IMG/VR virus record: IMGVR_UViG_3300038759_000120
Location: 1 to 46,653 of that record
DNA: 46,653 nucleotides
Direction: 5' to 3' (one strand)
From: a virus
A program made the position numbers and the translations under genes. The notes under the pieces are model-generated. The model was given only the letters and a program-made list of their open reading frames with translations, had not been told where the DNA came from and made no database searches. Of the stretch, positions 3,562 through 44,365 are shown piece after piece (position 1 is the stretch's first letter; the number at the start of each line of letters is the position of its first letter).

Positions 3562-3759
3562 ATGGCGACGATTACGAAAGGTTTTAAAGTTATACTCAAC
3601 ATGGCAGACGGTGAAAGTATAACAGTGTTAACAGATTACGAACCGTCACTCGAAGATAGTGTTATAAAATTCAGACTTGAAGATGACGACAAGGGTATGT
3701 TATATCGTCAAGTACGTATGGGTTCGTTCCACTCAATGAAAGTGTATATCATCTGTTGA
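3562..3759 (+). CDS. Hypothetical protein, 65 aa
   Basis: Unrecognised. An ATG at 3553 exists but AGAGGGG abuts it; the ATG at 3562 has proper spacing and gives a natural N-terminus (MATITKGFKVILNMADGES), so I chose it. It starts just after the polymerase stop. The TGA stop (3757-3759) is built into the -35 box and operator of the next promoter. The product is probably a small beta-rich protein. Confidence 0.6.
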   Translation: MATITKGFKVILNMADGESITVLTDYEPSLEDSVIKFRLEDDDKGMLYRQVRMGSFHSMKVYIIC

Positions 3760-3784
3760 CATACCCGTCACTATAGACGATACT
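3756..3784 (+). promoter_or_regulatory. Promoter with TGAC-N6-GTCA operator on the -35
   Basis: TTGACA (3756-3761), 17-bp spacer, GATACT (3779-3784). The palindrome TGACATACCCGTCA (3757-3770) covers the -35 box. It drives the gene pair at 3834-4264. The leader carries a hairpin also found downstream of the 36568-36596 promoter. Confidence 0.75.
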
Positions 3785-3791
3785 ATCAAAA

Positions 3792-3812
3792 AGCGTCACA
3801 TTCCGTGGCGCT
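3792..3812 (+). promoter_or_regulatory. Leader hairpin shared with the 36.5-kb promoter
   Basis: AGCGTCAC and GTGGCGCT pair (one G-U) around ATTCC, just downstream of the predicted transcription start. Almost the same sequence sits on the minus strand at 36541-36561 after a second operator-bearing promoter. Confidence 0.5.
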
Positions 3813-3833
3813 AATTACACGAGGTTATATGGT

Positions 3834-4121
3834 ATGAAATCACAAGGTAAATATACTACGAGTAGAATGTTACAAACTGCTAAAATAGCTAGTACCGTTG
3901 ACGGTATTGAGATAAGCGGTAATGCTTTTAAGGTTATCGAGTTACAAACTTGTCCCGATATGTTATTACATGCAGTAGAGCGAATAGAAGTGCTTGAAGA
4001 AGCGGTCAAAAAAGCGCACGAAATACTATTACACGAAATGGATAACGGACGAACGCCGAGCATGTTACAAGGCGTTGGACTTGGTTACTTTGAAGATATT
4101 ATATGTGGGGTGAAATCATGA
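3834..4121 (+). CDS. Hypothetical protein, 95 aa
   Basis: Unrecognised. ATG 3834 follows an ACGAGG ribosome-binding site. The middle (LLHAVERIEVLEEAVKKAHEILLHEM) is a likely coiled coil; the C-terminus is GVGLGYFEDIICG. First gene behind the 3756 promoter, overlapping the next small gene by four bases. Confidence 0.65.
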   Translation: MKSQGKYTTSRMLQTAKIASTVDGIEISGNAFKVIELQTCPDMLLHAVERIEVLEEAVKKAHEILLHEMDNGRTPSMLQGVGLGYFEDIICGVKS

Positions 4122-4264
4122 TTAATATTATCTTAAACACTTTTGTAGCTTTAATTGGTATCGCTATATTCGCACCTGACAGTGATATCCTTACGACAAT
4201 ATTTGTAGGTACTGTTAGTATTGCGGCTGTAAGGTTTTTCATCTACGTGATGCGGGGTGTGTAA
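4118..4264 (+). CDS. Small two-helix membrane protein, 48 aa
   Basis: ATG 4118 overlaps the stop of the preceding gene (ATGA). The 48-aa product has two hydrophobic stretches (residues 3-19 and 25-45), a short polar turn (APDSDI) and a positively charged C-terminus (VMRGV). Co-transcribed with 3834-4121. Function unknown; it converges with the minus-strand membrane genes 21 bases away. Confidence 0.6.
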   Translation: MINIILNTFVALIGIAIFAPDSDILTTIFVGTVSIAAVRFFIYVMRGV

Positions 4265-4285
4265 TCACCCGTACTATATGTGGGG

Positions 4286-4582
4286 TTAATCACGATTAGC
4301 TATCGATTGAACCATTGCGGCGAGCGCGTCCATTTGTTGTTGCGCTCGCTTAGCTTCTTCAGTGCGATACGCTAATTCTTCTTTACGTCTCAACTCTTCT
4401 TTACGATTTGCCGAAATCTTAAAACATATACCAGCAACCAACGACACGACACTCAAAACCAAACCAAGGGCGACAGCATACTCGTTTATCACACCTAGTG
4501 CGCTAGTTCCCGCTATTGTCGCGGCGGTTGCTCCTGAGCCTATAATGTTTGCATTGGCCGCATCGGGTAAATGTGCGCTCAT
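4286..4582 (-). CDS. Single-helix membrane protein with C-terminal coiled coil (holin-like)
   Basis: 98 aa. A Gly/Ala-rich N-terminus is followed by a transmembrane segment at about residues 36-56 (ALGLVLSVVSLVAGICF) and then a charged, Arg/Lys/Glu-rich helix to the end. This is the size and layout of some phage holins or accessory lysis proteins, but no family is firmly recognised. It overlaps the upstream gene (4579-5019) by four bases and lies downstream of the tail-fibre block, a common place for lysis genes. A second lysis-type cluster exists at 34.7-36.0 kb. Confidence 0.6.
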   Translation of the reverse strand: MSAHLPDAANANIIGSGATAATIAGTSALGVINEYAVALGLVLSVVSLVAGICFKISANRKEELRRKEELAYRTEEAKRAQQQMDALAAMVQSIANRD

Positions 4583-5118: not shown

Positions 5119-5160
5119 TTGACACGTTGCGCGAGTACGTATATAGTGACGTTACAGTCA
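5119..5160 (+). promoter_or_regulatory. Promoter with operator after the -10
   Basis: TTGACA (5119-5124), 17-bp spacer, TATAGT (5142-5147). The operator TGACGTTACAGTCA (5147-5160) overlaps the predicted start site. The promoter is closely related to that at 30779: both share TTGACACGTTGCGC and the block from TATAGTGACG to CAGTCAATTAAA. Confidence 0.8.
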
Positions 5161-5181: not shown

Positions 5182-5271
5182 ATGCCAGATTTACAAGCAA
5201 TAATTATTACAATAGTTTTAGTGTGTGGCCTTTGTTATTTACTATACAAAGACCACGTTAGTAATGATTAA
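5182..5271 (+). CDS. 29-aa single-span membrane peptide
   Basis: ATG 5182 to TAA 5271 encodes a peptide with one hydrophobic helix (AIIITIVLVCGLCYLLY) and a charged end. It is the only ORF between a strong promoter (5119) and the convergent tail-fibre gene, whose stop is one base away. The ribosome-binding site is weak (GAGTG). Having its own regulated promoter favours a real product; the transcript may also run antisense into the fibre gene. Confidence 0.5.
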   Translation: MPDLQAIIITIVLVCGLCYLLYKDHVSND

Positions 5272-7494: not shown

Positions 7495-8133
7495 TTATGC
7501 TCCAAAGTACTGACCGAATGTGGCCCGTGTGTCACCGAATCCAAACGACCCGCCAAACTGTGTAATTGCTGTTTCTTCAGTATAACCCAAAAACCCTACG
7601 CCTTGCGGTCGCGGTAATATATCAAACGTATTGAACACAAAACGCTCTATCTCACTAAGTTCTGAACCGAATGACACACTGAATGTCATGTCCTCGTTGT
7701 CTATTACGCTGATTGGGTTAATGTTCGTTATATAACTTAACGCTTTTACAACACCGTCAAGTGTTGCGTCTGAGTTATTTTTAGCTATTTTAGCTTTGAT
7801 TAATACTCTGTATATCTCGTTACTAACCTCATCGGTTATCGTAGCGCCGACAGTTTCAAACTGTGAGTCGTTACCGCCAAACTGTGCGGTGAGTGTATCT
7901 GCGCCGAAATACGTGTCAGGTTCAAACGTAACACTAGACTCGTAACTTCTATCAATGACCACGATGCGACCGATGACATCTAGTTCTGCGGTGTTAGCCG
8001 TGTCGATATTATACGACGTCCTGACCTGTTCGTAAGCGTCAGCTATTTGGCCCGCAAGCGACGGTACGATGTTGTACCACGCGACTGCTTTCGGTTTATC
8101 ACGATACTGTGCATATATACGGGTATTAATCAT
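7495..8133 (-). CDS. Baseplate protein, DUF2612 family
   Basis: 212 aa. The N-terminal pattern (ITRIYAQYRDKPKAVAWYNIVPSLAGQIADAYEQVRTSYNIDTA...ELDVIGRIVVIDR, paraphrased) and C-terminal FGG-containing repeats (AQFGGNDS, TQFGGSFGFGD) fit DUF2612 baseplate proteins that lie between gpJ and the tail fibre in small myophages. It overlaps gpJ by eight bases and ends six bases before the fibre gene. It probably joins the wedge to the fibre. Confidence 0.75.
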   Translation of the reverse strand: MINTRIYAQYRDKPKAVAWYNIVPSLAGQIADAYEQVRTSYNIDTANTAELDVIGRIVVIDRSYESSVTFEPDTYFGADTLTAQFGGNDSQFETVGATITDEVSNEIYRVLIKAKIAKNNSDATLDGVVKALSYITNINPISVIDNEDMTFSVSFGSELSEIERFVFNTFDILPRPQGVGFLGYTEETAITQFGGSFGFGDTRATFGQYFGA

Positions 8134-9331
8134 TTATAATCACCGTTATGTTCGACAAGTCCCAGCGTGACAACTCGTTAAGCGCGATGGGTACTTGACC
8201 AGACGTTAGGGTGTTCACTGTTAATGCTGTGATATACGAGTTGCCGAACACACCTATAATTTGATTAACCGGTGTGTACATACGTGACACTGGTACTTCC
8301 TCACCAATGTCAAAACCTAACACGTTAAATCCACACTCTGCAGCTACTAATTCACCCGACGAGTAATCGATAATAGCTTGCTTAACTCGCTCGTCAGTAT
8401 CGTTAGGTAATGTACCGTCGTTTTGTATCGTAACACTTACGATCATATCCACGTAGTTAGGTCGGCTGAACGTGATGTCGCGAGAGTTACTCGGGTAAAT
8501 GTCGAATACGTCAGGGACTGTTACGCTTGTACCAGCCGCGTGTAATTTACATCCGGGGTTTTTCTTACGAAATATCGCCTTTGCAATATCTTCGTTCGTA
8601 CCACCGTCAACAATCGGCGCAACACTATGTTCTGGTAGTCCGTTAGCATCAGTCACACCTGTATCGTTTTCCAGTACGATAGCGCGTCGAACACCTTCAA
8701 CCGCGAATATCTCGCCGAGCATGTTATCAACCTGAGCATTACCAGGGCGTGATACAGCTTTAGCGCGTTCAAGACGCAACGACGAATCGTTCTGTCTATT
8801 CGTACCGAGCGTAGCGACCGTTGGGTTAGTGACTTTTTGCCACCCACCCACAGTGTCTACAATACGTGTAATTGTTCCGATGCTCGCAACCGTTGCACCG
8901 TTGGTCGTACACGTTGCGGTCGCTGCGACTGTACCACCTACACCGATTGTTACGTTCGAGTCAATCGACCATTGCGAACCATCGACCACAGACTCGACGA
9001 GTTTACCAGATAAAATTACTGTACCCGCGACACCAGTTAAGGTTAACTCCACATTGCTTGGTGTGCCTTGACTACGTATCGTACCTGTGAGTGAACATAT
9101 GACGTTTAGGTCAACGTCTTTCGCTTTGTTCGGATCTTTAGAGTTATACGCACGTTGACCAAGCTCGTCGAGGTTTGCGAATATCTCAGCGTCAGACGCG
9201 AGTTTTAGGCCGTCGGGAGTCGATGGGTCTAAGTTCCAATTCGGATCGATATCCAAATATAGCTGGCGCTCTTCAGCAAACCATGTGTTTTGATTTTTTA
9301 TAACGTAACCGTTAAAAGTTATTTCAGCCAT
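8126..9331 (-). CDS. Baseplate J-like wedge protein
   Basis: 401 aa, homologous to phage P2 gpJ / Mu gp47 / T4 gp6-type wedge proteins. Typical features are the N-terminal DPNWNLDPSTPDGLKLASDAEIFANLDELGQRAYNSK-like helix (about residues 28-66), the GTPSNVELTLTGVAGTVI beta domain, and VGGWQKVTNPTVATLGTNRQNDSSLR before the C-terminal half. It overlaps both neighbours by a few bases, so translation is coupled. It forms the ring around the hub in the baseplate. Confidence 0.88.
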   Translation of the reverse strand: MAEITFNGYVIKNQNTWFAEERQLYLDIDPNWNLDPSTPDGLKLASDAEIFANLDELGQRAYNSKDPNKAKDVDLNVICSLTGTIRSQGTPSNVELTLTGVAGTVILSGKLVESVVDGSQWSIDSNVTIGVGGTVAATATCTTNGATVASIGTITRIVDTVGGWQKVTNPTVATLGTNRQNDSSLRLERAKAVSRPGNAQVDNMLGEIFAVEGVRRAIVLENDTGVTDANGLPEHSVAPIVDGGTNEDIAKAIFRKKNPGCKLHAAGTSVTVPDVFDIYPSNSRDITFSRPNYVDMIVSVTIQNDGTLPNDTDERVKQAIIDYSSGELVAAECGFNVLGFDIGEEVPVSRMYTPVNQIIGVFGNSYITALTVNTLTSGQVPIALNELSRWDLSNITVIIND

Positions 9332-10441: not shown

Positions 10442-10449
10442 ATGTTCAC

Positions 10450-10498: not shown

Positions 10499-10527
10499 TT
10501 GACAGGTTCGTCACTAGCGAGTAAAGT
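10499..10527 (+). promoter_or_regulatory. Promoter with operator on the -35 (small RNA promoter)
   Basis: TTGACA (10499-10504), 17-bp spacer, TAAAGT (10522-10527). Operator TGACAGGTTCGTCA at 10500-10513. No convincing coding sequence follows before the terminator at 10766-10791. Confidence 0.75.
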
Positions 10528-10533: not shown

Positions 10534-10791
10534 TGTAGACAGATGTGAATATCGAATCGTAACTGAGGAGGTGGTCAATATCTCGGGGCTATGACCGATA
10601 GATTAGCGAGACTTAACGACTGTTGCGATAATAGACGGTAGGTCGATTTAGAATGTAACGGGTTAACAGTGGATATGCTTGCAAGCTGTTCTTTTAAAGT
10701 CACCCACGTTGACAAACCGCTGTTAACACCGATACATTCTGTATCAATCAAGTTAGAACCTTTTAACCCCGTTTCGCGACGGGGTGTTTTT
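10534..10791 (+). ncRNA. Candidate phage small RNA, about 258 nt
   Basis: A regulated sigma70 promoter (10499) and a canonical terminator (10766-10791) bracket about 230 nt with no convincing ORF. It can form several helices: GGTCA/TGACC, a GCTTGCAAGC palindrome, an 11-bp long-range stem pairing the GTTAACAG block near 10661 with CTGTTAAC near 10721, and GATACA-TTC-TGTATC near 10732-10746. A GAGGAGGTG sequence (about 10564-10572) looks like a strong ribosome-binding site, but the nearest ATG (about 10591, 16 codons) is too far away. The tail of the RNA overlaps the 3' end of the hub gene on the other strand by two or three bases. It is the only content of the 348-bp gap between spike and hub genes. 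Confidence 0.55.
10766..10791 (+). terminator. Rho-independent terminator of the small RNA
   Basis: ACCCCGT, loop TTCGCG, ACGGGGT, then GTTTTT. Stem of seven pairs followed by a U tract on the plus strand. Confidence 0.85.
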
Positions 10792-11656
10792 ATGTACGAA
10801 TACGTAAACCGTATATCTTATTCGACCATGAGTCTCCCCACGTATCACCCGTGTATTCAATCTTAATAATCTTATGTTCACCTTGCCCCGCTGTTTCAGG
10901 AACGTCGCGGAAATATAAGTTACTAAAATTAAACGTTGCTAAGTCCGACTCGATACGAAACTTACCGCCTATACGAAACTTAGGGTTTAACCGTGTCGTT
11001 ACGTCCACACCAACGTCAGATATTTCGGGTATACCTTCCATGCCCGTAAACTGTGATATGACATTCACAGCACCTTGGCGAGCGTAACCCTGTCTAACAA
11101 CGACTAGTTTCTCGTTTTCGATAACGTAATCAAACTTGTGGGTTTGTGCTAACTCATCGAGATACACACGCGGATCGCCTTGTAACGCATATCCGTAAGG
11201 GTACGGGTCGACGTCTGCAAACTGTGAGTCGTCAATCACTATGGGATAGCCTAACGCTGTGCCGCACGCACGTATAATGTTAATCAGTTTGGTGTCAACA
11301 CCTAACGTTTGATTGATTTGCGGTTGTTCCTCAGTGACTTTACCACCTCTACAAACCAAGCGTGTAATTGTGTTAGGCCCTCTACGTTCGGGAAACACGT
11401 TGCGCACTGTACCACTGAATATGGTGTCGATTGAGTCCACGTAACCAGCCCTAAAAACGATATTCTTACCGCGTTTTAACGCTTTACTTATCGTGTCGGT
11501 TGATAAATTATATATCGCTATATCAGCGTAACTAGTGAACCCGCCGAAGTCGTGGAGTATTTGAAACGTCGCTTTAAACTGTCGACCAGCGACAGCTTCG
11601 ATAAGCACCTCGCCGTCAACCTCAAGCGACCAACGTCGATCGTTATAACTACTCAT
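10790..11656 (-). CDS. Baseplate hub protein (gpD/gp27-like)
   Basis: About 288 aa. The ATG at 11656 (MSSYNDRRWSLEVDGEVLIEA) follows GGTGTGGG and is preferred to the longer ORF start at 11680. The pattern (FSGTVRNVFPERRGPNTITRLVCRGG, helix, then AQTHKFDYVIENEKLVVVR) is that of the two-barrel hub proteins (P2 gpD, T4 gp27, Mu gp44). It lies between the plug gene and the spike gene, as expected. The stop codon lies at the end of the plus-strand small-RNA terminator. Confidence 0.78.
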   Translation of the reverse strand: MSSYNDRRWSLEVDGEVLIEAVAGRQFKATFQILHDFGGFTSYADIAIYNLSTDTISKALKRGKNIVFRAGYVDSIDTIFSGTVRNVFPERRGPNTITRLVCRGGKVTEEQPQINQTLGVDTKLINIIRACGTALGYPIVIDDSQFADVDPYPYGYALQGDPRVYLDELAQTHKFDYVIENEKLVVVRQGYARQGAVNVISQFTGMEGIPEISDVGVDVTTRLNPKFRIGGKFRIESDLATFNFSNLYFRDVPETAGQGEHKIIKIEYTGDTWGDSWSNKIYGLRIRT

Positions 11657-16011: not shown

Positions 16012-16040
16012 TTTAAATGCTCCTGATTGCAATCAATAAC

Positions 16041-18020: not shown

Positions 18021-18049
18021 TTGACGTATCCGTCACTAAGCGCTACACT
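18021..18049 (+). promoter_or_regulatory. Promoter with operator on the -35
   Basis: TTGACG (18021-18026), 17-bp spacer, TACACT (18044-18049). Operator TGACGTATCCGTCA at 18022-18035. Drives the 18082-19669 island. Confidence 0.78.
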
Positions 18050-18081
18050 TCCCGTACAGTAAAATTGTGGAGATACAACGA

Positions 18082-18414
18082 ATGACAACGGAACAACGAA
18101 GAGCGATAAACGAGAATCCGAATTTACAATCGGGCGTGCTATCAAGGTTGTTAGGTATACCAAGTAACACTATAAAAACGTTCCGACGACGTAATAATTT
18201 ACGTGGTAAGTGGACGTACTCGGGGACAGGTATACCATTTTTAAGATTCGACGGGTTATACCGTATAATGTATAACCACAGATACGTGATAGCATGTAAC
18301 GATTTTAAAAAGGCGATTGATGTGTTAGATCATTTAATCTGGTCGATCGAAACGGGTGTAATGTCTGATAACACACGCATAGAACACCCATATTTTGAAG
18401 GTTTGAAGCTATGA
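18082..18414 (+). CDS. Helix-turn-helix protein, 110 aa
   Basis: ATG 18082 sits nine bases after GGAG; the in-frame GTG at 18067 overlaps that site and is unlikely. Residues 14-42 (NLQSGVLSRLLGIPSNTIKTFRRRNNLRG) look like a helix-turn-helix. The rest is unassigned. It is the first gene of the island and overlaps the zinc-finger gene by four bases. Probably a phage DNA-binding regulator. Confidence 0.65.
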   Translation: MTTEQRRAINENPNLQSGVLSRLLGIPSNTIKTFRRRNNLRGKWTYSGTGIPFLRFDGLYRIMYNHRYVIACNDFKKAIDVLDHLIWSIETGVMSDNTRIEHPYFEGLKL

Positions 18415-18686
18415 GTAGATATAATTTAGCAGGTGATTCGACGATGATACATTGTAAAGTCACCGACAATAAAATGACGAAGAAAGAGTGTCAAAAACTT
18501 GACATACCTGTCTATTACTACGTGTGTAAACACGGTCACAAGTTACGTTACGTGTCAAACGATAAGTGTGTCGATTGTTCAGTAGCTCAAAACCGTAAAC
18601 ATACTGGTGATGCGAAACGCGTCGCAATTAAAAAGCGTCTCGACGAGATCGAAGCACGTCGAGAGCTTGACAAAATACTATGTTAA
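18411..18686 (+). CDS. Small zinc-finger protein, 91 aa
   Basis: Cysteines are arranged as C15, C26, then VCKHGHKLRYVSNDKCVDC (C-x-H-x-H ... C-x2-C), followed by a basic helical tail. The CKHGH...YVS...C-x2-C unit recurs at the C-terminus of the 33920 protein. Possible nucleic-acid-binding protein. An internal ATG at 18444 is an alternative start. Confidence 0.6.
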   Translation: MSRYNLAGDSTMIHCKVTDNKMTKKECQKLDIPVYYYVCKHGHKLRYVSNDKCVDCSVAQNRKHTGDAKRVAIKKRLDEIEARRELDKILC

Positions 18687-18784: not shown

Positions 18785-19669
18785 ATGCGTAAACTAACCA
18801 CCGATCAATTTATCGAAAAAGCTAAACTAGTTCATGGTGATAAATATGATTACTCTAAAACCATGTACACTAAAGCCAAGTTCAAACTGACTGTAACTTG
18901 TCGTAATCACGGCGATTTCACCCAGAAAGCTAACAATCATTTAAACGGTAACGGATGCCCGACATGCGCCAACAAGGTACAAATGAGCACCAGTGAATTT
19001 ATCGCGAAAGCTAAACTAGTTCATGGTGATAAATATGATTACACCATGTCAGAATGTAAATCATATTCACATAAAATAACTATAAAATGCCCGTCGCACG
19101 GTTACTTCAAACAAAGTTATGAAAATCATCTTAAAAAAGGTATGGGATGTAGAGCGTGTGGGTCTGAACGCATGAAAAAGCTACAAACTAAGACTGCAAG
19201 CCAGTTCATAGATGAATCAAAAATAATACACGGTGATAAGTATGATTATTCTAAAGTTAATTATGTTGGTAGGGTCAGTAAAGTAATTATAAATTGTGCT
19301 GAGCATGGTGATTTCAACCAGAACCCAGCATGTCACTTACGAGGTTCTGGTTGTCCGTCTTGCGCTAATACATGTTTCGACACATCTAAACAGTCAAAAC
19401 TTTACATCTTAGTATCTGAAGACGGTAGTATGATTAAAGTAGGTATAACTAATAACTACAACAGAAGAGTTAGTGAGTTGAAATGTTCCACACCCTTCAA
19501 CTTTGAAATGTTAGACTTGTACAGTGTTGAAGGAAGTGTTGCTCGTATCTTCGAGAAATCACTCCACAGCATGTTAAATAGTGCTAATCTGAAAGGTTTT
19601 AACGGTGCTACAGAGTGGTTTCTTCACAACGGTGATTTTATAGACGGTGTGAGGTTAATGTTATCTTGA
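18785..19669 (+). CDS. Homing endonuclease: three DUF723-type repeats plus GIY-YIG/T5orf172-like domain
   Basis: 294 aa. Three repeats (about residues 1-63, 66-128 and 133-196) share FIxxAKLVHGDKYDYS...HGxFxQ...HLxGxGCPxCA, each with an H/C zinc-binding set. The C-terminal domain (about 205-245, SKLYILVSEDGSMIKVGITNNYNRRVSELK) is the T5orf172/Mug113 branch of GIY-YIG nucleases. This is a typical free-standing mobile endonuclease. Its DNA has fewer CG dinucleotides than the neighbouring genes. It ends five bases before the convergent DUF4054 gene and probably entered the phage with part of the island. Confidence 0.8.
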   Translation: MRKLTTDQFIEKAKLVHGDKYDYSKTMYTKAKFKLTVTCRNHGDFTQKANNHLNGNGCPTCANKVQMSTSEFIAKAKLVHGDKYDYTMSECKSYSHKITIKCPSHGYFKQSYENHLKKGMGCRACGSERMKKLQTKTASQFIDESKIIHGDKYDYSKVNYVGRVSKVIINCAEHGDFNQNPACHLRGSGCPSCANTCFDTSKQSKLYILVSEDGSMIKVGITNNYNRRVSELKCSTPFNFEMLDLYSVEGSVARIFEKSLHSMLNSANLKGFNGATEWFLHNGDFIDGVRLMLS

Positions 19670-27413: not shown

Positions 27414-27552
27414 CCCTGAATGGTACGTAAAGAAACGCGACGAAATGTATCGCGCTTATCAAGCGGCTTTAGAAATGGAAGAACTAGACGAAGCTGAACG
27501 GTTGTTCAAAGAGTACGAAAACTACTCGAAGCAGTGTGGGGGTGTGTCGTGA
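27406..27552 (+). CDS. Small helical protein, 48 aa
   Basis: ATG 27406 overlaps the end of the DfrB-like gene and its TGA overlaps the next start. Charged amphipathic helix ([39 protein letters not shown] in part). Unknown function; coupled translation within the operon. Confidence 0.6.
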
Positions 27553-27779
27553 TACGCTACTACCATAAAGACAGGTTCTTAGGTTACGGTGTGGGTATAA
27601 ACCCTTTGACCGGCTCTATAGTGTTAGTAACTGACGACAACGAATACAAAGCGTTTCACCGTGAACAAATCACACATCATGTCGTGGGTGAAACAGTACT
27701 AGATGATAGGGTTAAACAACCTAACCGCGATAAGACCGAAAAATACTTCGAGTTACCTTACCCTTTACCGCTATCTTAA
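27549..27779 (+). CDS. Hypothetical protein, 76 aa
   Basis: GTG 27549 overlaps the preceding stop (GTGA) after GTGGGGGTG; a longer ORF from GTG 27534 is less likely. Begins [27 protein letters not shown], a beta-rich SH3-like pattern. The 3' end overlaps the convergent MuF-like gene by nine bases. Unrecognised. Confidence 0.6.
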   Translation: MIRYYHKDRFLGYGVGINPLTGSIVLVTDDNEYKAFHREQITHHVVGETVLDDRVKQPNRDKTEKYFELPYPLPLS

Positions 27780-28734: not shown

Positions 28735-28763
28735 TTGACCGCACCGTCACTAGTTGTTAATAT
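28735..28763 (+). promoter_or_regulatory. Promoter with operator on the -35
   Basis: TTGACC (28735-28740), 17-bp spacer, TAATAT (28758-28763). Operator TGACCGCACCGTCA at 28736-28749. Confidence 0.78.
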
Positions 28764-28771: not shown

Positions 28772-28826
28772 CGAAACGAAACGAAACGAAACGAAACGAA
28801 ACGAAACGAAACGAAACGAAACGAAA
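28772..28826 (+). repeat. (CGAAA)11 microsatellite in a 5' leader
   Basis: Eleven uninterrupted CGAAA units between the -10 box and the ribosome-binding site (AGGTGA) of the 28844 gene. The transcribed leader would be almost wholly this repeat. Confidence 0.97.
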
Positions 28827-28843: not shown

Positions 28844-29026
28844 ATGCAACGAGTAATAACTACTTTCAAACAAGTGACACTTGATCATAACGGTGTGTCA
28901 TACGTAAGGGTTGATAAGTTCAAGGGTGGTGTTTATTCTAACGTCGATCACTACGGATGTAACTGTACTTCGTTCCACTCTGAGCAAGAAGTTAAACTAT
29001 GGATCGATGAGGTGTTCGGGGAATGA
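28844..29026 (+). CDS. Hypothetical protein, 60 aa
   Basis: Unrecognised. Well-placed AGGTGA before ATG 28844. Beta-strand-like start (ITTFKQVTLDHNGVSYVRVDKFKGG) and a CNC motif (GCNCTSFHSEQEVKLWIDEVFGE in part). First of three overlapping small genes behind the repeat-bearing leader. Confidence 0.65.
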   Translation: MQRVITTFKQVTLDHNGVSYVRVDKFKGGVYSNVDHYGCNCTSFHSEQEVKLWIDEVFGE

Positions 29027-29133
29027 TTAAAATCGCAGCGAGTATAATAGCGTTTGCCGACTGGCTCGGTCAACAAGATGAAACGCTCGTAGAGTGCTAC
29101 GAGAAACGTTTAAAACTTTGGGGGTTAGTGTGA
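29023..29133 (+). CDS. Small protein, 36 aa
   Basis: ATG 29023 overlaps the previous stop and TGA 29131 overlaps the next start. Sequence MIKIAASIIAFADWLGQQDE followed by a charged helix. Tight stop-start overlaps support translation. Confidence 0.55.
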   Translation: MIKIAASIIAFADWLGQQDETLVECYEKRLKLWGLV

Positions 29134-29345
29134 TTACCAGAACAGTAAAAACAGTGAACATTGAAATATCGTTAAGTGAAGATGAAGCTAGATGGTTATT
29201 AGGTTATCTTCAAAATTCACCACAAGGTCTTGATGAGAGTGAAAGTGACCATTACACGCGCTGTGATATGTTCGAGACGTTGAAAGAGGCATTAACAGTT
29301 GAACCACCTCAAGTATCAATACCACCACCCACACGTTTAGCATAA
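29130..29345 (+). CDS. Hypothetical protein, 71 aa
   Basis: GTG 29130 after a GGGGG site, overlapping the preceding TGA; the longer ORF from 29094 would overlap the 36-aa gene more. Contains EISLSEDEARWLLGYLQNSP, a helical segment common in small phage proteins, and a Pro-rich end. Unrecognised. Confidence 0.6.
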   Translation: MITRTVKTVNIEISLSEDEARWLLGYLQNSPQGLDESESDHYTRCDMFETLKEALTVEPPQVSIPPPTRLA

Positions 29346-30778: not shown

Positions 30779-30821
30779 TTGACACGTTGCGCTACCATCG
30801 GCTATAGTGACGCTACAGTCA
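30779..30821 (+). promoter_or_regulatory. Promoter with operator after the -10
   Basis: TTGACA (30779-30784), 18-bp spacer, TATAGT (30803-30808). Operator TGACGCTACAGTCA at 30808-30821. Near-duplicate of the promoter at 5119. Confidence 0.8.
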
Positions 30822-30843: not shown

Positions 30844-31125
30844 ATGAAACGAGACTACACGACCCGCGACGAGCTAACCATGCGTGAAATGGTTGTGGAG
30901 GGTCGTTCAATCGCAGAGGTGGCAAAACGACTCAACCGCACATACGCAGCGACCGCACAACGCTTATCGACGTTGGGCATCGCTACACGTGCACAGCGTT
31001 ACACACGTGAACAGTGTGAGCGGATCTTAACGTGTGCTGACAACCAACTGTTAGCGCGTGAGATGAGCCGCACACCTGATATGATAATTATGAAACGATA
31101 CAAACTTAAAAAGGCGATGAGATGA
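30844..31125 (+). CDS. Helix-turn-helix (Myb/SANT-like) protein, 93 aa
   Basis: TRDELTMREMVVEGRSIAEVAKRLNRTYAATAQRLSTLGI (residues 7-46 in part) fits a Myb/SANT-like or GcrA-type helix-turn-helix; a second, weaker one may follow (REQCERILTCADNQLLAREMSRTPDMI). Sole clear gene of its island, so it may be a phage transcription factor, a rival to the TetR-like protein for reading the shared operators. Confidence 0.7.
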   Translation: MKRDYTTRDELTMREMVVEGRSIAEVAKRLNRTYAATAQRLSTLGIATRAQRYTREQCERILTCADNQLLAREMSRTPDMIIMKRYKLKKAMR

Positions 31126-33848: not shown

Positions 33849-33878
33849 TTGACTAACGTCATACTTATAAATTATACT
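33849..33878 (+). promoter_or_regulatory. Promoter with variant operator
   Basis: TTGACT (33849-33854), 18-bp spacer, TATACT (33873-33878). The half-sites are present but closer: TGAC-TAAC-GTCA (33850-33861). Confidence 0.65.
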
Positions 33879-33919: not shown

Positions 33920-34681
33920 GTGCCAATCTATTATTTTCCAGACGGTAGAGCTTCGGAACACCCGACGAGCTACGAACTAGCGTGTGAACTTAAAACGAAG
34001 CGCTACGACGAGGGCGTGAAGTGTAATAAATGCAACGCTCGTTTCACTAGTAGGTATACAAAAAACCAAGAATGTGCAGGTTGTGCACAGTTAAAAGCAG
34101 GTGATTTTTACAATTTATGCAAGCGCCACATGAAGATGTTTTGTAGTAATCCTGAAGGTGGATGGATGAGTAAAGTATCGGCGGGAGTGCTTCGACCTAT
34201 AGACGAAGACGTGTGGGATGAGATGATCGACCTTGCGTACTTATATCAACAAAACGAGCATACAGGGGAGTTCACAGTTTCAGAAGACGCGTGTAAAACT
34301 CACGGGCATTACGGGCTTAAACGACACGGTAAGTGTTATCAGTGTCAGTTGATGCGCACCAAACTAACACCGCGACAAAAAGCTATACAGGACGGTAAGA
34401 CGTGGTACATGCCCGCTACCGACTGCCCTAAGTGTGGTGAGAGAGCACTTAAGAATATACATAATGGTTCGTGTCAAGGTTGTAACCCACCTCGCGACAA
34501 CCGTACCACAGCGACTAGTATTATAATGGCTAATAATCCCGACATGGTGATAAGCCGAGAAGATGCTCACGAGCTTGAGATGATCGTATACCGTACGGGT
34601 GAAGAATGTAAGCATGGTCATACAGGCTGGCACTATGTATCAACAGGTAATTGTATCGATTGCCGTAAGGATAGTAGATAA
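33920..34681 (+). CDS. Multi-zinc-ribbon protein, 253 aa
   Basis: Starts at GTG 33920, nine bases after AGGAG. At least four metal-binding units are visible: CNKCNARFTSRYTKNQECAGC, CKTHGHYGLKRHGKCYQCQ, CPKCGERALKNIHNGSCQGC and CKHGHTGWHYVSTGNCIDC (each C/H-x2-C ... C-x2-C; first and third shown at ~20 residues). The last resembles the 18411 protein. Possibly DNA- or RNA-binding. It is alone behind its promoter. Confidence 0.7.
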   Translation: MPIYYFPDGRASEHPTSYELACELKTKRYDEGVKCNKCNARFTSRYTKNQECAGCAQLKAGDFYNLCKRHMKMFCSNPEGGWMSKVSAGVLRPIDEDVWDEMIDLAYLYQQNEHTGEFTVSEDACKTHGHYGLKRHGKCYQCQLMRTKLTPRQKAIQDGKTWYMPATDCPKCGERALKNIHNGSCQGCNPPRDNRTTATSIIMANNPDMVISREDAHELEMIVYRTGEECKHGHTGWHYVSTGNCIDCRKDSR

Positions 34682-36540: not shown

Positions 36541-36561
36541 AGCGCCACGACATGTGACGCT
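36541..36561 (-). promoter_or_regulatory. Leader hairpin shared with the 3.8-kb promoter
   Basis: Minus strand AGCGTCAC/GTGGCGCT (one G-U) around ATGTC, close downstream of a TTGAC-operator promoter, as at 3792-3812. Confidence 0.5.
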
Positions 36562-36567: not shown

Positions 36568-36596
36568 ACTTTAGCTGTTAGTGACGGCGGTGTCAA
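36568..36596 (-). promoter_or_regulatory. Promoter with operator on the -35
   Basis: Minus strand TTGACA (36596-36591), 17-bp spacer, TAAAGT (36573-36568). Operator (minus strand TGACACCGCCGTCA) at 36595-36582. The promoter lies inside the last codons of the primase-helicase gene and drives the lysis-type cluster. Confidence 0.75.
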
Positions 36597-38962: not shown

Positions 38963-39259
38963 CTACGACACTCCCAGCGCGCGACACGCTATATATTGTC
39001 CCTCGTCTTGCCTAACTTCAGGCAGTTTAGCGATTTCAGTCAGAGCATTTTCAAGCTCCTCTACACGTCGCTCAGCATCCACAAGTTTTTGACAAGGTGT
39101 TAAACCGTCTACTTTCTGCATTGTAACAACGAACGATTTTGAAGGGTCGTCGTTACAACCGAAAGTTTGTTCAATGTAGTTAACAGCACCCGAACCCTCG
39201 AAGAAATCGAGAAGCTTATCGGCCATAGCGTGTATTACGTTTTCGTGTTCATTACTCAT
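38963..39259 (-). CDS. Hypothetical protein, 98 aa
   Basis: ATG 39259 nine bases after GGGAG, inside the end of the TetR-like gene. A coiled coil (CQKLVDAERRVEELENALTEIAKLPE) and the ending YIACRALGVS, a pattern seen in many small phage proteins. Function unknown; sits one base before the primase-helicase gene. Confidence 0.65.
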   Translation of the reverse strand: MSNEHENVIHAMADKLLDFFEGSGAVNYIEQTFGCNDDPSKSFVVTMQKVDGLTPCQKLVDAERRVEELENALTEIAKLPEVRQDEGQYIACRALGVS

Positions 39260-39590
39260 CGTCTTCGCTCCCACCGTTGCTGATCAACCAATCCATTGCT
39301 TGACGCTTTAACGTGTCATCAGCACCGTGAGCGATACGACAACCCGACGCGATACCGTGAGCGATGATAGGTAACTCGGCGCGGTGTATCGCTGCGCGCA
39401 TAACGGCACGGTGTAACTGATTCATAGTGTTAAACACTTTACTCACTAAACCTGTGGAAATACCACCTTGCTCGGCGATACGTTCACGTGTTACAGCGTC
39501 GTAACCCTGTTTAATAGCTATATCCATCGCAACACCTAAGATGTGCTCGCGACGTGCTTCTGGTTTCATTCTTGTTCTACGGTCTGACAT
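39252..39590 (-). CDS. Short TetR-family transcriptional regulator
   Basis: 112 aa. Residues 13-58 (REHILGVAMDIAIKQGYDAVTRERIAEQGGISTGLVSKVF in part, then the YxH-like FNTMNQLHRAVMRAAI) are a standard TetR helix-turn-helix. The usual ligand-binding domain is missing; only about 50 residues follow. AGAGAG precedes the ATG. Its promoter contains two perfect TGAC-N6-GTCA operators, so autoregulation is likely, and the same operator stands at most other non-structural promoters. Probably the global regulator of early phage genes. Confidence 0.8.
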   Translation of the reverse strand: MSDRRTRMKPEARREHILGVAMDIAIKQGYDAVTRERIAEQGGISTGLVSKVFNTMNQLHRAVMRAAIHRAELPIIAHGIASGCRIAHGADDTLKRQAMDWLISNGGSEDDE

Positions 39591-39611: not shown

Positions 39612-39653
39612 TGACTAGATGGTCAATATAAGCGCGCGTGACGGGCTTGTCAA
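39612..39653 (-). promoter_or_regulatory. TetR-like gene promoter with two operators
   Basis: Minus strand TTGACA (39653-39648), 17-bp spacer, TATATT (39630-39625). Operators at 39652-39639 (on the -35) and 39625-39612 (at the start site), both perfect TGAC-N6-GTCA. Confidence 0.85.
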
Positions 39654-39823: not shown

Positions 39824-40296
39824 AGTGACCCCACATCATTACAAAAACACGCGTCGCCGCCAAGCGACACGACGAACTCAAGGCAACGCAACTGTGCAAT
39901 TTCGTGTTCAGTGGCAGTATACTTCCAGTTAGCTCGTTTAACCTCACGCATTACGAATTGACCTATAGTACAACCGACCATTTCTTGTGTGATTAACACA
40001 GGACGTATACCGATAAGATCACCAGACTTAATATGTTCGTTCATCTTTTTAGAGTCGTTCATCCAACCGTAACGTATTTGTCTACCGTTTTTATCTTCAC
40101 AAGCACCAACCTGATTACGGTAGAGCCTAACACCAACGTGACTAGCCTCAAGACGTACAGCGTTCAACACAGCCGCTTCGCTCGCACCGGTCATAGAGTG
40201 CGGTACGTCCGTCGACTGTGTGAATAACTGTTGCAACTCTTCGAGTGCTTCGGGCGTTACGCCGTGACGCTTCGCCCATTCGTTAAGGTGTATCAT
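39820..40296 (-). CDS. VRR-NUC domain nuclease
   Basis: 158 aa PD-(D/E)XK nuclease of the VRR-NUC type. Active-site pattern: E40 in GASEAAVL, D93 in SGDLIG, E118-x-K120 in MREVKR, then a helix with an Arg/Leu-rich pattern (AQLRCLEFVVSLGGDACF). Such proteins go with phage helicases in recombination or Holliday-junction processing. It overlaps the PAPS-like gene by four bases. Confidence 0.82.
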   Translation of the reverse strand: MIHLNEWAKRHGVTPEALEELQQLFTQSTDVPHSMTGASEAAVLNAVRLEASHVGVRLYRNQVGACEDKNGRQIRYGWMNDSKKMNEHIKSGDLIGIRPVLITQEMVGCTIGQFVMREVKRANWKYTATEHEIAQLRCLEFVVSLGGDACFCNDVGSL

Positions 40297-41306
40297 GATA
40301 AATCTCCAAAAGCTTCACATGACTCTGAACACGAGTTGGTTTCAACCATGTGACCACCACGTATACGCGCTTTAATCTCTTCGCCTGTTGAACCGTCAAA
40401 AGTAGCTATCACCTGCCCTATGGAACGTTTTTTTCTATAACCTCGATGATTATCGTGAGTGTCCCTGACTGTAGCGTTATTTACAAGTTGTAACCAGTCT
40501 TGGTACATTTCCGGTTCGTCCTTCGCTGCAGCTGCGAGTTTTAGGTCTGATTTTTTGAAGCAGTATACACAATTACCGCACCACTCAGGTATCTCTAGGT
40601 CGAAAGGCATTTTAGACCAATGTTCCATTACGTCAGATTTATCCATGTCTGTTATTTCAGCCATGTAATGAATGTTGCGGTCTATAGTTACTTTGTAATA
40701 CCTTTGAATCATTAACCTGGCTAGATAAACATTACCTTCTACCAACTTTGAAACATTCTCAACAGTGATTAAGGTGTCACCCATCTGACGCCACTTATCT
40801 ATAATATCTATATCATCCATACCCATGTTTTTCATTATCTTAACTATGGAATGTTTACTTTTTTTAGGGTTTCCCCATATCCTCAGAGGTTCATCCGAAC
40901 GCATACCTAACCATGTTTCGTAGTTATGCTCCCCGTAAGTATCGTTACAATATTTATCGTGCACGTCCTCTTTCATTCGAGACGTACACCAACCGTTGCC
41001 GATACCAGGCATCCCGTACTTTTTAACAAGTTCACCGTACACTTTTAAATCGTATTTCAAATCTTCCACGGGTATTATCTTATATGTGTGGCCTTCACCT
41101 AGAGGCTGATTAAAATCACCTTGTAAACAAGTCAAGTTGAGGTCGAAATAAAGATCGCAAAACTTGATGAACTCGTATGTCTTAGGGTGCTCAGCACCCG
41201 TATCCATGTAAATAAAATCTAAGTTATCCCTTCCGAATTTAGAAATCATCTCTACGGCCATACATATACTTGTACGACCTCCACTGACATTTACGGTTTT
41301 TTTCAT
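40293..41306 (-). CDS. PAPS-reductase-like / N-type ATP-pyrophosphatase protein
   Basis: 337 aa from ATG 41306 (MKKTVNVSGGRTSICMA), eight bases after GGGAG. PP-loop SGGRTS (8-13), then FIYMDTGAEHPKTYEF and GNGWCTSRMK, as in the PAPS reductase/sulfurylase fold. A Cys pair WCGNCVYCF near residue 258 and a C-terminal cysteine cluster (NSCSESCEAF) suggest a metal or Fe-S site. Phage members lie beside replication genes; their substrate is not established. DNA here has fewer CG dinucleotides than the genes on both sides. Confidence 0.75.
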   Translation of the reverse strand: MKKTVNVSGGRTSICMAVEMISKFGRDNLDFIYMDTGAEHPKTYEFIKFCDLYFDLNLTCLQGDFNQPLGEGHTYKIIPVEDLKYDLKVYGELVKKYGMPGIGNGWCTSRMKEDVHDKYCNDTYGEHNYETWLGMRSDEPLRIWGNPKKSKHSIVKIMKNMGMDDIDIIDKWRQMGDTLITVENVSKLVEGNVYLARLMIQRYYKVTIDRNIHYMAEITDMDKSDVMEHWSKMPFDLEIPEWCGNCVYCFKKSDLKLAAAAKDEPEMYQDWLQLVNNATVRDTHDNHRGYRKKRSIGQVIATFDGSTGEEIKARIRGGHMVETNSCSESCEAFGDLS

Positions 41307-41339
41307 CGTAACTCCCGTTAAACTGACCAAAACGTCACT

Positions 41340-43067
41340 TTACGTGCCCAAATTACCAATGTCAAGCGCGACACGTTCACTTAACGCTAGCGACTCACTC
41401 GACCCGAGCGCCTGGGCGCTTAACCAATCCACACCGTAACGCAGATAAAAACGTCTAAATATCTCACTGTCTGAACGACCCGCTGCACGATGATGACCCG
41501 CCCACATCGCTAAGATTTCGCGCAGTGCTTCAAGCGCTTGTTGTTGTGCTTCAAGCTTCGCAGCGAACCGACGAGAGTGTGCAGCGATGTGTAACGGTTT
41601 GGTATGTTTCGCTGCTAGTTCCATTCGATACTGTGCAATTGCGTCTTGTAGTGGCATATCCACACGTGCGACATCGCCGCGCATCTGTGCGAGTGTATTA
41701 GCGTCAAGCTCCGTTAAATCACCGTCGACGAGTTCAGGCTCTTTACGGTCGGTAGGTGCTGGTTTAGGTATCGGTGTGTCGCAAAACGGGCAGACTGTAA
41801 GGTATTTCTCATAGACGTTGTAACACTCTTCGTTCATACACGTACGTAACTGTGTAGCGTCATCACCACCAGCCCCACGCTTCTCACGCCTATCAAGTGT
41901 CCATTCGCGTTTGGCGTCTGGTAGCCCGTGACGCATTACGTTACCCGCGTGGTCAATAACCAACGCGTGTTTTTTACCATCGAGCAACCGTAAGGCGCGG
42001 CCGAATTGTTGGATATATAGAGAATAACTAGCAGTAGGTCTAGCCATACTAACTACTTCAATCGCTGGTACGTCAACGCCTTCCCCGAGCAAATCCACAT
42101 TTACAAGCTGTAATATCTCACGGTTGCGAAACTTACGCATCACATCACCGCGTTGTTCATCGGGTGTTTTAGCGCTCAACACTTCGGCACGTACACCGGC
42201 TTCGTTGAACTGTCGCGCTACTTCAGTAGCTTGCTCTACACTCGGTACGAACGTTACACCCAATTTACCGTTAGCTATACGTTTATAATGTGAAACTATG
42301 TCGCCGACAATACGTGACTTACCATCCGAAGCGATTAACGACGACTTACCAACCGCGTCACGCATTTGATTAACGTTATAATCCCCCGTGGTCTTACTGA
42401 CGGATACGTGCGATAAATCAATGTCACTAGGTGGTGAGAATATACGGTACTCTGTTAAGAACCCTTCACGTATTAGGTCTCGCATATTAGGACCTACGAC
42501 CATAGTATCAAATAGACCGTCGTGATGAGTACCTAAACCCTTACCGTCAGCACGAACAGGTGTGGCCGTTGGTCCTAGTAACTTACAATTATTAAATAGT
42601 TGTACAGCGGTTCCCCACTTGTTCTCTTTAAGCACGTGGTGAGCTTCATCAATTACACAAAGTGTGACTGTAGGTAAATAACGTTTAAGTTCATCTGTTC
42701 TACGCACCAAAGTGTCTACACCGGCTACGGATGCTTTAGAGCTTGGGTCGTAAAAACTACGTTTAAATTCTTTCATGTGCATACGTACAATAGTACGTAT
42801 TAATTTATCAGGGCCAATTATACGATGTTCAACACCGTTACGGGCAAACGCCATTGACAACTGTGACACTAGCTCCTGGCGATGTGCAATGGTACAACTC
42901 GCACCATCGTGATCGCGTACAATTGCTGAAAGTATACGAGACTTACCACCACCGGTAGGAAGTACCATGCACACACCATGATTACCAGCGCCCCACGCTT
43001 CATGTACGTGATCGTAAAGCCCTAACTGATAAGGTCTTAGTCCTTTATCCGAGCATATTTTTTTCAT
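41340..43067 (-). CDS. Superfamily 2 DEAH helicase (RadD-like)
   Basis: 575 aa. Motif I PTGGGKS (37-43), motif II DEAH (140-143), motif III GPTATPVR, motif VI QQFGRALR. A zinc finger follows (CMNEECYNVYEKYLTVCPFC), then a helical C-terminus. This order matches RadD-type repair helicases and their phage relatives. It probably acts with VRR-NUC, DUF2800 and the polymerase in recombination-dependent replication. The start overlaps the HNH gene. Confidence 0.87.
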   Translation of the reverse strand: MKKICSDKGLRPYQLGLYDHVHEAWGAGNHGVCMVLPTGGGKSRILSAIVRDHDGASCTIAHRQELVSQLSMAFARNGVEHRIIGPDKLIRTIVRMHMKEFKRSFYDPSSKASVAGVDTLVRRTDELKRYLPTVTLCVIDEAHHVLKENKWGTAVQLFNNCKLLGPTATPVRADGKGLGTHHDGLFDTMVVGPNMRDLIREGFLTEYRIFSPPSDIDLSHVSVSKTTGDYNVNQMRDAVGKSSLIASDGKSRIVGDIVSHYKRIANGKLGVTFVPSVEQATEVARQFNEAGVRAEVLSAKTPDEQRGDVMRKFRNREILQLVNVDLLGEGVDVPAIEVVSMARPTASYSLYIQQFGRALRLLDGKKHALVIDHAGNVMRHGLPDAKREWTLDRREKRGAGGDDATQLRTCMNEECYNVYEKYLTVCPFCDTPIPKPAPTDRKEPELVDGDLTELDANTLAQMRGDVARVDMPLQDAIAQYRMELAAKHTKPLHIAAHSRRFAAKLEAQQQALEALREILAMWAGHHRAAGRSDSEIFRRFYLRYGVDWLSAQALGSSESLALSERVALDIGNLGT

Positions 43068-43684
43068 TGTCTACCCTCAACAGCTTCAACAACTGACCAA
43101 CCGTAATTATTTAATCGACCTTTCATCGTGTAAAAATTAATACCAGCCAGTTCGGCAAGTTCTCTAATAGTGTATTCTTTACCGTTATATTCGTACTTGC
43201 GTATCTTACGAGTGTTTAACGCTTGTTTCTCGTTAGCTAACCACACACAATTTAAAGGTGAATAACCTAAGTTCACATCGGCGCGCTCAATCGTTAAACC
43301 TTCACAGTATCCGTTTTCTAAAGCCCAACTGTGAAAATGATTATAATTATCCCACAACGAACAAACTTTAATACCTCGACCGCCGTAATTAGGATAATCT
43401 TTATTTCTAGGGTTGTTACAACGTTGACGCATCGCGACCCACACGTAGTAAAGCTTCTTAATTGTTGCTGACTTACCATGTGTTTTCAGATGGTGATCAC
43501 AACCACAACTACTTTTAGACCCGTGACGTTTTTTAGACGCGAAGGTTATACAACGCTCAACAGTATTACCACAATCACAAGTAAACTCCCAAATCCACAA
43601 ACCTTTTTCATTTGGTCGAAGTGGTTTAGTTGCTGTCAATTTACCGTATTTGTTACCCGTAATGTCTTTACGCTTATTAGCCAT
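43064..43684 (-). CDS. HNH-type (AP2-like) homing endonuclease
   Basis: 206 aa. N-terminal Cys pairs (CDCGNTV...SSCGCDHH), then the phage HNH/AP2 signature YYVWVAMRQRCNNPRNKDYPNYGGRGIKVC...LTIERADVNLGYSPLNCVW (in parts), and a C-terminal helix-turn-helix-like segment (TIRELAELAGINFYTMKGRL). Free-standing mobile endonuclease. First gene of the helicase operon under a strong promoter. Confidence 0.8.
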   Translation of the reverse strand: MANKRKDITGNKYGKLTATKPLRPNEKGLWIWEFTCDCGNTVERCITFASKKRHGSKSSCGCDHHLKTHGKSATIKKLYYVWVAMRQRCNNPRNKDYPNYGGRGIKVCSLWDNYNHFHSWALENGYCEGLTIERADVNLGYSPLNCVWLANEKQALNTRKIRKYEYNGKEYTIRELAELAGINFYTMKGRLNNYGWSVVEAVEGRQ

Positions 43685-43718
43685 TTTAAGACCTCATCAA
43701 ATAATGAAACATTGCGTT

Positions 43719-43746
43719 ATTATATACACTAGACTTAACCTGTCAA
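43719..43746 (-). promoter_or_regulatory. Strong sigma70 promoter of the helicase operon
   Basis: Minus strand TTGACA (43746-43741), 16-bp spacer, TATAAT (43724-43719). It has no perfect TGAC-N6-GTCA, only TGAC followed by AGTC six bases on, so it may be constitutive. Confidence 0.8.
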
Positions 43747-43747
43747 C

Positions 43748-43981
43748 CTATTCCCAATTCCTCGGTAAGATTGTTATAAGTGTGCGATTATGTGACGTTA
43801 CGACGAAGATGCAAAGCTCCGTAACATAATAACGTCTGTCGCGTCTGATACGCACACCAAGTGTGCGAACCTTGTTAGGTTTCCATTTAGTAGCTTTACG
43901 AAACTCGGCGATGATGCCACCTTTTATACGTTTCTCGAATCGTTGCCGCCACCGAACCCCCGCATGTTTAGTTATTATCAT
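43748..43981 (-). CDS. Small basic protein, 77 aa
   Basis: ATG 43981 or TTG 43987; both overlap the preceding gene. Very basic (KHAGVRWRQRFEKRIKG..., VRIRRDRRYYVTELCIFVV), a compact alpha/beta pattern that loosely recalls DUF4258- or toxin-like small folds, not assigned. Second gene of the 44315 operon. Confidence 0.55.
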   Translation of the reverse strand: MIITKHAGVRWRQRFEKRIKGGIIAEFRKATKWKPNKVRTLGVRIRRDRRYYVTELCIFVVTSHNRTLITILPRNWE

Positions 43982-44315
43982 TGGCAATACGACCCTCAGT
44001 ATAAGGTGATAATATTAACTCATAATCATCTAAGTGACCCGTTTCCCAATCGTAGCTTTCGTTTGTTACAGTTAGTTGGTATACACCGTCTATAACGTCA
44101 TACATATTAACAATGATAATATCTTCTAATGATTGATTGTACATTTCATTCTCTAACAGATCGAAATCAGGTGTTTTACGTTTTAAAGTGCGTAACTCTT
44201 TTACCTGTCGAAAAGCACCTTTCGATGTTTTATATGTTGAAGTTGTGAGCCTAACCACCGTTACAGGCTGTTTAGGTTTATTCAAGTCTAAAGTATCCAT
44301 AAAATTATTTCTCAT
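43968..44315 (-). CDS. Hypothetical protein, 115 aa
   Basis: Unrecognised. ATG 44315 has no clear ribosome-binding site; ATG 44300 is preceded by GAGA and may be the real start. Basic N-terminal half (TSTYKTSKGAFRQVKELRTLKRKTPDF) and acidic C-terminal half with TVTNESYDWETGHLDDYEL. First gene on the minus side of the divergent promoter at 44322-44365. Confidence 0.6.
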   Translation of the reverse strand: MRNNFMDTLDLNKPKQPVTVVRLTTSTYKTSKGAFRQVKELRTLKRKTPDFDLLENEMYNQSLEDIIIVNMYDVIDGVYQLTVTNESYDWETGHLDDYELILSPYTEGRIANDNN

Positions 44316-44321
44316 TTGTTG

Positions 44322-44365
44322 TTGACTGAGTGGTAACTATACGTTTATAGTGACCGTGTTGTCAA
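44322..44365. promoter_or_regulatory. Overlapping divergent promoters sharing one operator
   Basis: Plus: TTGACT (44322-44327), 18-bp spacer, TATAGT (44346-44351). Minus: TTGACA (44365-44360), 18-bp spacer, TATAGT (44341-44336). Operator TGACCGTGTTGTCA (44351-44364) covers the plus start site and the minus -35. A one-mismatch copy (TGAC-TGAGTG-GTAA, 44323-44336) mirrors it on the plus -35. Confidence 0.82.

Follow-up and report, generated by a model that had tools for sequence, protein, structure and literature searches.

The DNA examined here, hereafter the window, is the whole of the virus record IMGVR_UViG_3300038759_000120 in IMG/VR (46,653 bases, linear class). A short palindrome, TGAC-N6-GTCA, recurs at its promoters, which raises the question of which protein reads this element and to what effect. 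We propose that a 112-residue TetR-type repressor encoded by the phage binds it as its operator, and that early and accessory promoters, together with the repressor's own, would thereby be shut off jointly. We put the probability of this reading, which is built on sequence comparison, at roughly 78%.

The palindrome and its position at promoters

An exact search of the full sequence found 13 copies of TGAC-N6-GTCA. The initial annotation had counted eleven, all of which were confirmed; the copies at 9100 and 41324 had been missed. It had also put the number expected by chance at about 0.7. Dinucleotide shuffles gave a slightly higher mean of 0.98 copies (standard deviation 1.19, maximum 6 in 100 shuffles), and the excess over chance holds. 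When all 256 tetramer half-sites were scanned at gaps of 0–12, TGAC with a gap of 6 was the top palindrome (13 copies versus 9 for the runner-up), and TGAC and GTCA separated by 0–5 or 7–15 bases occurred at most twice per gap. The shuffles and the palindrome scan rule out chance or base composition as the source of the motif, and a spacing artefact is ruled out since gaps other than 6 are not linked to promoters. The palindromic operator is confirmed, in a stronger form than first stated.

Twelve of the 13 copies lie at sigma70-type promoters according to a fixed placement rule with two classes. Class A sites have TTGAC as the -35 box, with a -10-like hexamer 16–18 nt further on. In class B sites a -10-like hexamer ends on the T of TGAC, and a -35-like hexamer lies upstream of it. 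The rule was devised after inspection of the window sites, and later loci were scored with the rule unchanged. Class A sites start at 3757, 10500, 18022 and 28736 on the plus strand and at 36582 and 39639 on the minus strand; class B sites start at 5147, 26479 and 30808 (plus) and at 39612 and 41324 (minus). The site at 44351 is class B on the plus strand and class A for a divergent minus-strand promoter, and 3757 shows an additional weak class B match on the minus strand. The sites at 3757 and 36582 overlap the 3' end of the upstream open reading frame (ORF), and the site at 41324–41337 stops 3 bp short of the end of ORF 41340–43067. The earlier statement that the copies occupy only two promoter positions is thus accurate for 12 of them. 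The remaining one (9100–9113) is the only copy inside coding DNA without a promoter; it lies in ORF 8126–9331 and is probably a chance occurrence. The N4 variant noted before at 33850–33861 (plus) is indeed present over a -35 box, as TTGACTAACGTCA, 18 nt from TATACT and upstream of 33920–34681.

The operator has the fuller form TTGAC-R-N4-Y-GTCA. In the site logo, positions 4 and 9 of class A are R and Y, respectively. An A directly follows GTCA in 83% of class B sites, which gives both classes one TTGAC half-site; for class A, the T of this half-site is itself part of the placement rule.

The late structural promoters had been described as lacking the element, and this stands for the scope examined, six minus-strand structural operons whose longest ORFs start at 10459, 17711, 26397, 28706, 30731 and 33473: none has a minus-strand operator at these starts. 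The products include portal, protease, head morphogenesis and terminase proteins (PHROGs) and, by similarity to named phages, baseplate proteins. An extended -10-like sequence, GTTATACTGT, adjoins three structural operon starts, at 10448, 26425 and 28695 (minus), and a fourth copy is found at 16039 (minus). The longest ORFs at 10459 and 28706 begin inside or just before this sequence, and the true starts are therefore probably located further in. It is possible that GTTATACTGT represents a late-promoter signature.

Association of the operator with a TetR-type regulator

The proposed repressor is encoded at 39252–39590 on the minus strand. It matches Pfam TetR_N (PF00440; E 1.3e-6, 28.5 bits, above the curated cut-off of 24) and phrog_8723 (E 7e-30). 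TetR family proteins typically possess a large C-terminal ligand-binding and dimer domain. Such a domain is lacking in this protein, which has 112 residues in all. In an AlphaFold2 (AF2) model (predicted local distance difference test, pLDDT, 88.4) the third or recognition helix spans residues 46–52, and the helix-turn-helix (HTH) is followed only by helices at 55–68, 72–81, 84–87 and 91–108. The 50 PDB fold matches listed are TetR-type regulators, at weak E-values (best 4.6e-3).

The tetR promoter carries both operator positions, 27 bp apart. One site (39639–39652, minus, class A) lies over the -35 box of TTGACA-N17-TATATT, and the other (39612–39625, minus, class B, TATATTGAC) begins at the last base of the -10 hexamer; together they lead the tetR–primase operon (39590–36571, minus). 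Such palindromic candidate operators at the regulator's own gene are also found in relatives. Out of the 65 genes of the window, only tetR, the primase, the helicase, two nucleases, the phrog_11133 protein and a tail-fibre gene have homologues in every one of the 11 other operator genomes. No other recognisable HTH regulator than the TetR-type protein belongs to this group, and we regard it as the probable reader of the operator. Phage Scuro has tetR, the primase, the helicase, the nucleases and the operators in common with the window; it shares no structural genes with it except for one tail-fibre match.

A tblastn search with the TetR-type protein matched 69 of 50,697 phage records, each at less than 60% identity. 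Our main set consisted of 28 records with a TetR homologue, namely 14 IMG/VR contigs (the window and G001–G013, which were gathered by TetR and primase searches) and 14 named phages. In these records 130 of 160 exact copies were promoter-placed, compared with 20 of 183 sites with gaps of 2–5 and 7–10 and 381 of 5,366 occurrences of TGAC alone (Fisher p about 1e-42). In 16 further loci, each covering at most 20 kb around tetR, 51 of 64 copies were placed versus 3 of 38 at other spacings (p about 5e-13); these loci are not all independent, as L087–L091 are KpV52-like and L090 and L091 have identical sites. L086 (KpV52 itself) and contigs that had served before (L070–L074 and the re-found L010, L011, L013, L015 and L020) stand outside this count. 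The motif is common to phages of Klebsiella, Vibrio, Edwardsiella and Acinetobacter. A search of related phages, which had been suggested as a check, thus found it both conserved and promoter-placed. As controls, five related phages in which tetR has no significant match (PA-1, AsaM-56, XM1, Aaphi23 and YenM_12) have 4 copies, 1 of them placed. AsaM-56 was chosen from the phage group in PMC3391216 and the other four controls came from a terminase search; YenM_12 was covered over 50,000 of its 50,476 bases, and the best TetR match in PA-1 has an E-value of 0.07.

The tetR gene itself is a preferred site. An exact operator lies within 150 bp upstream of tetR in 9 of the 28 records, against 0.61 expected from site density, and an operator with at most one mismatch in 19 of 28, where the shuffle rate would give about 2. 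The tetR promoter bears an exact operator in 11 of the 16 further loci as well. The double tetR operator is also exact in G001, G002, G003, G011 and G013, and occurs with altered letters in G004–G010, of which G007 has a single exact copy. The annotated tetR start of Scuro (21924) has an operator ahead of it, at 21960; the script, which used an internal start, missed it.

Among the named phages, CP-T1 has 8 of 9 copies placed, MSW-3 10 of 12 and KpV52 12 of 14. As read by eye, eleven of the KpV52 copies precede same-strand genes that carry no structural annotation, and the placed copy at 23500 has no gene downstream. A weak class B match lies on the opposite side of two copies, 4556 and 18806, and at 4556 it points toward a head-morphogenesis gene. 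Of nine annotated KpV52 promoters, five coincide with operators (4542, 14016, 35487, 38157 and 38200) and four do not (10226, 14212, 27999 and 47250).

We also scanned promoter spacers in an unbiased way, taking every TTGAC promoter in contigs of at least 30 kb and recording enriched tetramers at offsets 5 to 19. In the 12 operator genomes above 30 kb, GTCA at offset 11 was the top-ranked tetramer nine times and the runner-up three times (window 6 of 19 promoters, KpV52 10 of 15, G012 8 of 12, CP-T1 7 of 11, Scuro 4 of 8). No tetramer reached 4 counts in the five controls, which have 1–21 promoters each and of which only YenM_12, with 21, has more than 4. The same holds for nine other tetR genomes (PD0307, PLPE, AeroV_348, SppYZU01, 367.14, R9Y1, Psp6, CKB-S1 and 1.009.O), in which 0–6 TTGAC promoters leave the scan little power. 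GTCA-N6-TGAC in CKB-S1, GCTTAAGC in R9Y1 and GGCT-N9-AGCC in AeroV_348 did not seem operator-like when viewed by eye.

Two relatives carry a different element. In G010, which has one exact TGAC-N6-GTCA copy, CGCC stands at offset 10 in 9 of 14 promoters (p 8e-17), corresponding to TTGAC-N5-CGCCA. PY6 contains five copies of GTAGCGC-N4-GCGCTAC in promoter spacers, with GTAG at offset 8 in 4 of 7 promoters; the fifth copy (12382) has a weaker -10 by eye. The TetR proteins of G010 and PY6 carry different recognition helices, so that in these two relatives the predicted operator differs where the predicted recognition helix differs. Within this helix, Gly47 is invariant in the operator-bearing homologues (13 of 13, alignment A1) and position 50 is mostly Asn or Ser in the same alignment. 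Genomes that combine Gly47 with Asn or Ser at position 50 have more placed sites than the others (14 versus 9 genomes, Mann-Whitney p 0.0005, a value that overstates the effect because the genomes are related, and that leaves out five short contigs). Exceptions are Psp6, PLPE and G010, with 0, 1 and 1 placed sites despite the combination, and Scuro, with 4 sites and Leu50. By eye, at least two copies are present in 10 of 10 further loci that fit the rule and in 1 of 6 others; Gly47 had been noticed before these loci and the preference at position 50 after them, so they are no clean test of the combination.

Proposed function and competing explanations

From the position of the operators at promoters we infer repression and an early shut-off. 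When the phage enters the cell, no repressor would yet be present and the strong host-sigma70 promoters would be active; those of the TTGACA-N17-TATAGT type would fire immediately with host RNA polymerase. The first wave would comprise tetR, one ORF-less RNA and the genes for replication, nucleases and accessory functions. The repressor would then build up, probably as a dimer, and fill the operators. Occupancy of a class A site would mask the -35 box and that of a class B site the start site from the last -10 base, and both should shut out RNA polymerase. The early promoters and that of tetR, with its two operators, would be turned down jointly, and the structural promoters without an operator would keep running, as in a Cro-like timer. 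The earlier proposal of one phage regulator over the non-structural promoters gains support from conservation, placement, the sites at the tetR promoter and the homologues in 11 of 11 genomes, and also from the five related phages without tetR, which lack the regulon.

Several observations weigh against this scheme. Just 0–3 exact copies are held by 11 of 23 long tetR-bearing records, and no other operator emerged in the nine low-copy tetR phages, for which the scan has little power as stated; among the controls only YenM_12 gives it much power, and this phage without tetR has one placed copy. Some copies are directed at structural genes or adjacent to them: in CP-T1, 30664 and the plus side of 25769; in MSW-3, 13173 and the plus side of 4288; and in KpV52, 174 together with the weak plus sides of 4556 and 18806. 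Gly47 with Asn or Ser at position 50 is neither sufficient (Psp6, PLPE) nor necessary (Scuro, L082) for the operator. Most genomes were picked via tetR or the linked primase, and co-occurrence is therefore partly built in; the helicase, the nucleases, the primase and the phrog_11133 protein are as universal as tetR.

That universality is also what speaks for a host factor or another phage protein as the reader, since binding by TetR is itself a prediction. This seems quite improbable to us, as the motif is shared by phages of the host genera named above, the five tetR-less relatives lack the regulon, the tetR promoter itself carries operators, and in two relatives a different helix goes with a different operator. 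A somewhat better candidate, which we nevertheless regard as unlikely, accepts the same TetR-type protein as binder and gives it a role in immunity or a plasmid-like pseudolysogeny, in which the non-structural programme is held silent and an integrase is unneeded. The operators do lie on replication as well as accessory promoters, and a PHROGs scan of 39 of the 65 window proteins gave no integrase or partition family. CP-T1, which carries operators, is reported in PMC3391216 as temperate yet without the genes of any known lysogeny mechanism. However, two operators at the tetR promoter itself would suit a transient shut-off more than a state that is kept up, no promoter for such maintenance was seen, and phiPLPE and 138, which are also tetR carriers, are listed as lytic in the same paper. 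Finally, GTCA at offset 11 might be a mere part of a strong sigma70 promoter and no operator, given that class A overlaps the -35 box. We consider this extremely improbable: the class B palindrome lies downstream of the -10 hexamer, a position that sigma contacts do not require, other spacings lack a link to promoters, and the 21 TTGAC promoters of YenM_12 show no such tetramer.

If repression by the TetR-type protein is the correct reading, a protein family that in many phages, Klebsiella phages and CP-T1 among them, is labelled 'unknown function' (phrog_8723) or taken for a co-opted cellular regulator would gain a likely function and a DNA code. The map of early promoters would become predictable for each tetR-bearing genome, and the protein–operator pair would come with natural specificity variants. 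A much broader picture is tentative and in our opinion doubtful as a whole. In it, an undescribed class of minimal phage TetR repressors would run genome-wide early regulons in many genera, with an operator code that travels with the replication module between unrelated virion modules (Scuro), and has changed on two or more occasions (G010, PY6). These repressors would also govern a modular non-coding RNA by the baseplate spike gene and serve as the missing immunity repressor of CP-T1.

Transcription units, a candidate RNA and known repressor systems

The remaining operators of the window precede a variety of units. On the plus strand, class A sites lie upstream of 3834–4264 (3757–3770, TTGACA-N17-GATACT), 18067–18686 (18022–18035, TTGACG-N17-TACACT) and 28844–29345 (28736–28749, TTGACC-N17-TAATAT). 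Class B sites precede a 29-residue hydrophobic ORF at 5182–5271 (5147–5160, TTGACA-N17-TATAGT), 26516–27779 (26479–26492, TTGCAA-N17-TATAGT) and 30844–31125 (30808–30821, TATAGT with TTGACA as -35). The product of the last is a D5-like regulator (phrog_323, E 3.9e-8), which was rejected as binder of the operator, being present in only 2 of 11 operator genomes. On the minus strand, a class A site (36582–36595, TTGACA-N17-TAAAGT) leads the operon 36529–34721. A class B site (41324–41337, TTGACA-N17-TAAAGT followed by GAC) serves a PAPS-reductase-like gene (40293–41330, phrog_33262) and overlaps the start of its longest ORF. The site at 44351–44364 lies between divergent promoters, with the phrog_11133 protein and two exonuclease-like genes on the plus side (44390–46653) and the helicase operon on the minus side (44315–41340).

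Some of these units show further features. At the DNA level, the stretch 5179–5270 matches Pseudoalteromonas phages H101 and AL with 93% identity (AL annotation QIG62426.1); this match excludes the operator and hints at the host. Eleven tandem CGAAA units (28772–28826) lie in the leader of the gene driven by the 28736 operator. By eye, similar leaders with a short hairpin, AGCGTCACAT..CGTGGCGCT, occur at 3792–3812 (plus) and 36541–36561 (minus), near the expected transcript 5' end of two operator promoters. The segment 18687–18784, which precedes an endonuclease gene (18785–19669, phrog_681), looks by eye like the remnant of a group I intron and has no Rfam match at gathering score.

The class A operator at 10500–10513 (plus, TTGACA-N17-TAAAGT) precedes a conserved region without an ORF. 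This region, a candidate structured non-coding RNA at 10538–10790 (plus), adjoins the baseplate spike gene. The exact 29-nt pattern of its core is found in 8 viral contigs, with an operator within 150 nt upstream in 7 of them, and the core has a mean column identity of 97% in five sequences picked as distinct, across which no conserved ORF was seen. On the 3' side of the core follows a hairpin with arms of variable sequence, closed by GAATGTAACGG...CCGATACATTC. The fold has a z-score of -2.84, and 2 of 200 shuffles fold equally well. Rfam gave no family at gathering score and two sub-threshold matches (E 0.07 and 0.12). Two model pairs are broken in G002 and L092, and covariation was not seen in the core, which is too conserved to show any. 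The region, with its interchangeable hairpin arms, is also seen in L092, L093, L094 and L096; in the last of these, a portion of the arm sequence apparently recurs beyond the terminator.

Operator-driven stretches without an ORF also precede the baseplate spike gene in KpV52 (L053, 23268–23468, minus) and CP-T1 (L052, 37885–38116, minus), where they fold weakly better than shuffles (z -1.8 and -1.6). They were not accepted as homologues of the window RNA, as the core covariance model finds only six close-group records among 49 sources. In MSW-3 (L054, about 10778–11032, minus) an operator promoter points into a stretch without an annotated gene. G009 has a tRNA-like sequence by eye near 28,500, about 100 bases upstream of the baseplate spike gene, the same intergenic spot as that of the window's RNA.

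In Comeau et al. 2012 (PMC3391216), the tetR genes of phiPLPE, CP-T1 and 138, which belong to the same protein family and phage group as those studied here, are called plausibly co-opted cellular regulators. A word search of the main text of that paper gave no occurrence of promoter, operator, palindrom- or motif. Among the matches listed in the open-access literature, as distinct from subscription papers and preprints, we found no account of the operator or the regulon.

With the TetR family (PF00440) the system shares the N-terminal TetR helix-turn-helix and a palindromic site in the regulator's own promoter. It differs in the size of the protein, whose C-terminal part is one short conserved block and no full ligand-binding domain, and in its sites, which are spread over about a dozen genome-wide promoters instead of one neighbouring operon. 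In mycobacteriophage L5, one repressor, gp71, binds many short stoperators throughout the genome, which are asymmetric and in many cases lie outside promoters. A single phage repressor with many short dispersed sites would be common to both; in contrast to the stoperators, the operator described here is palindromic and promoter-placed at two fixed positions (12 of 13 copies in the window and 130 of 160 in the 28 records). Lambda Cro is made early and turns down the early promoters and its own through two operator clusters. The TetR-type protein, as an early-made repressor expected to lower early and own promoters, would act in a similar manner; no CI-like partner was seen among the window proteins scanned, and it differs from Cro in having another fold and about a dozen dispersed promoters as its predicted targets.

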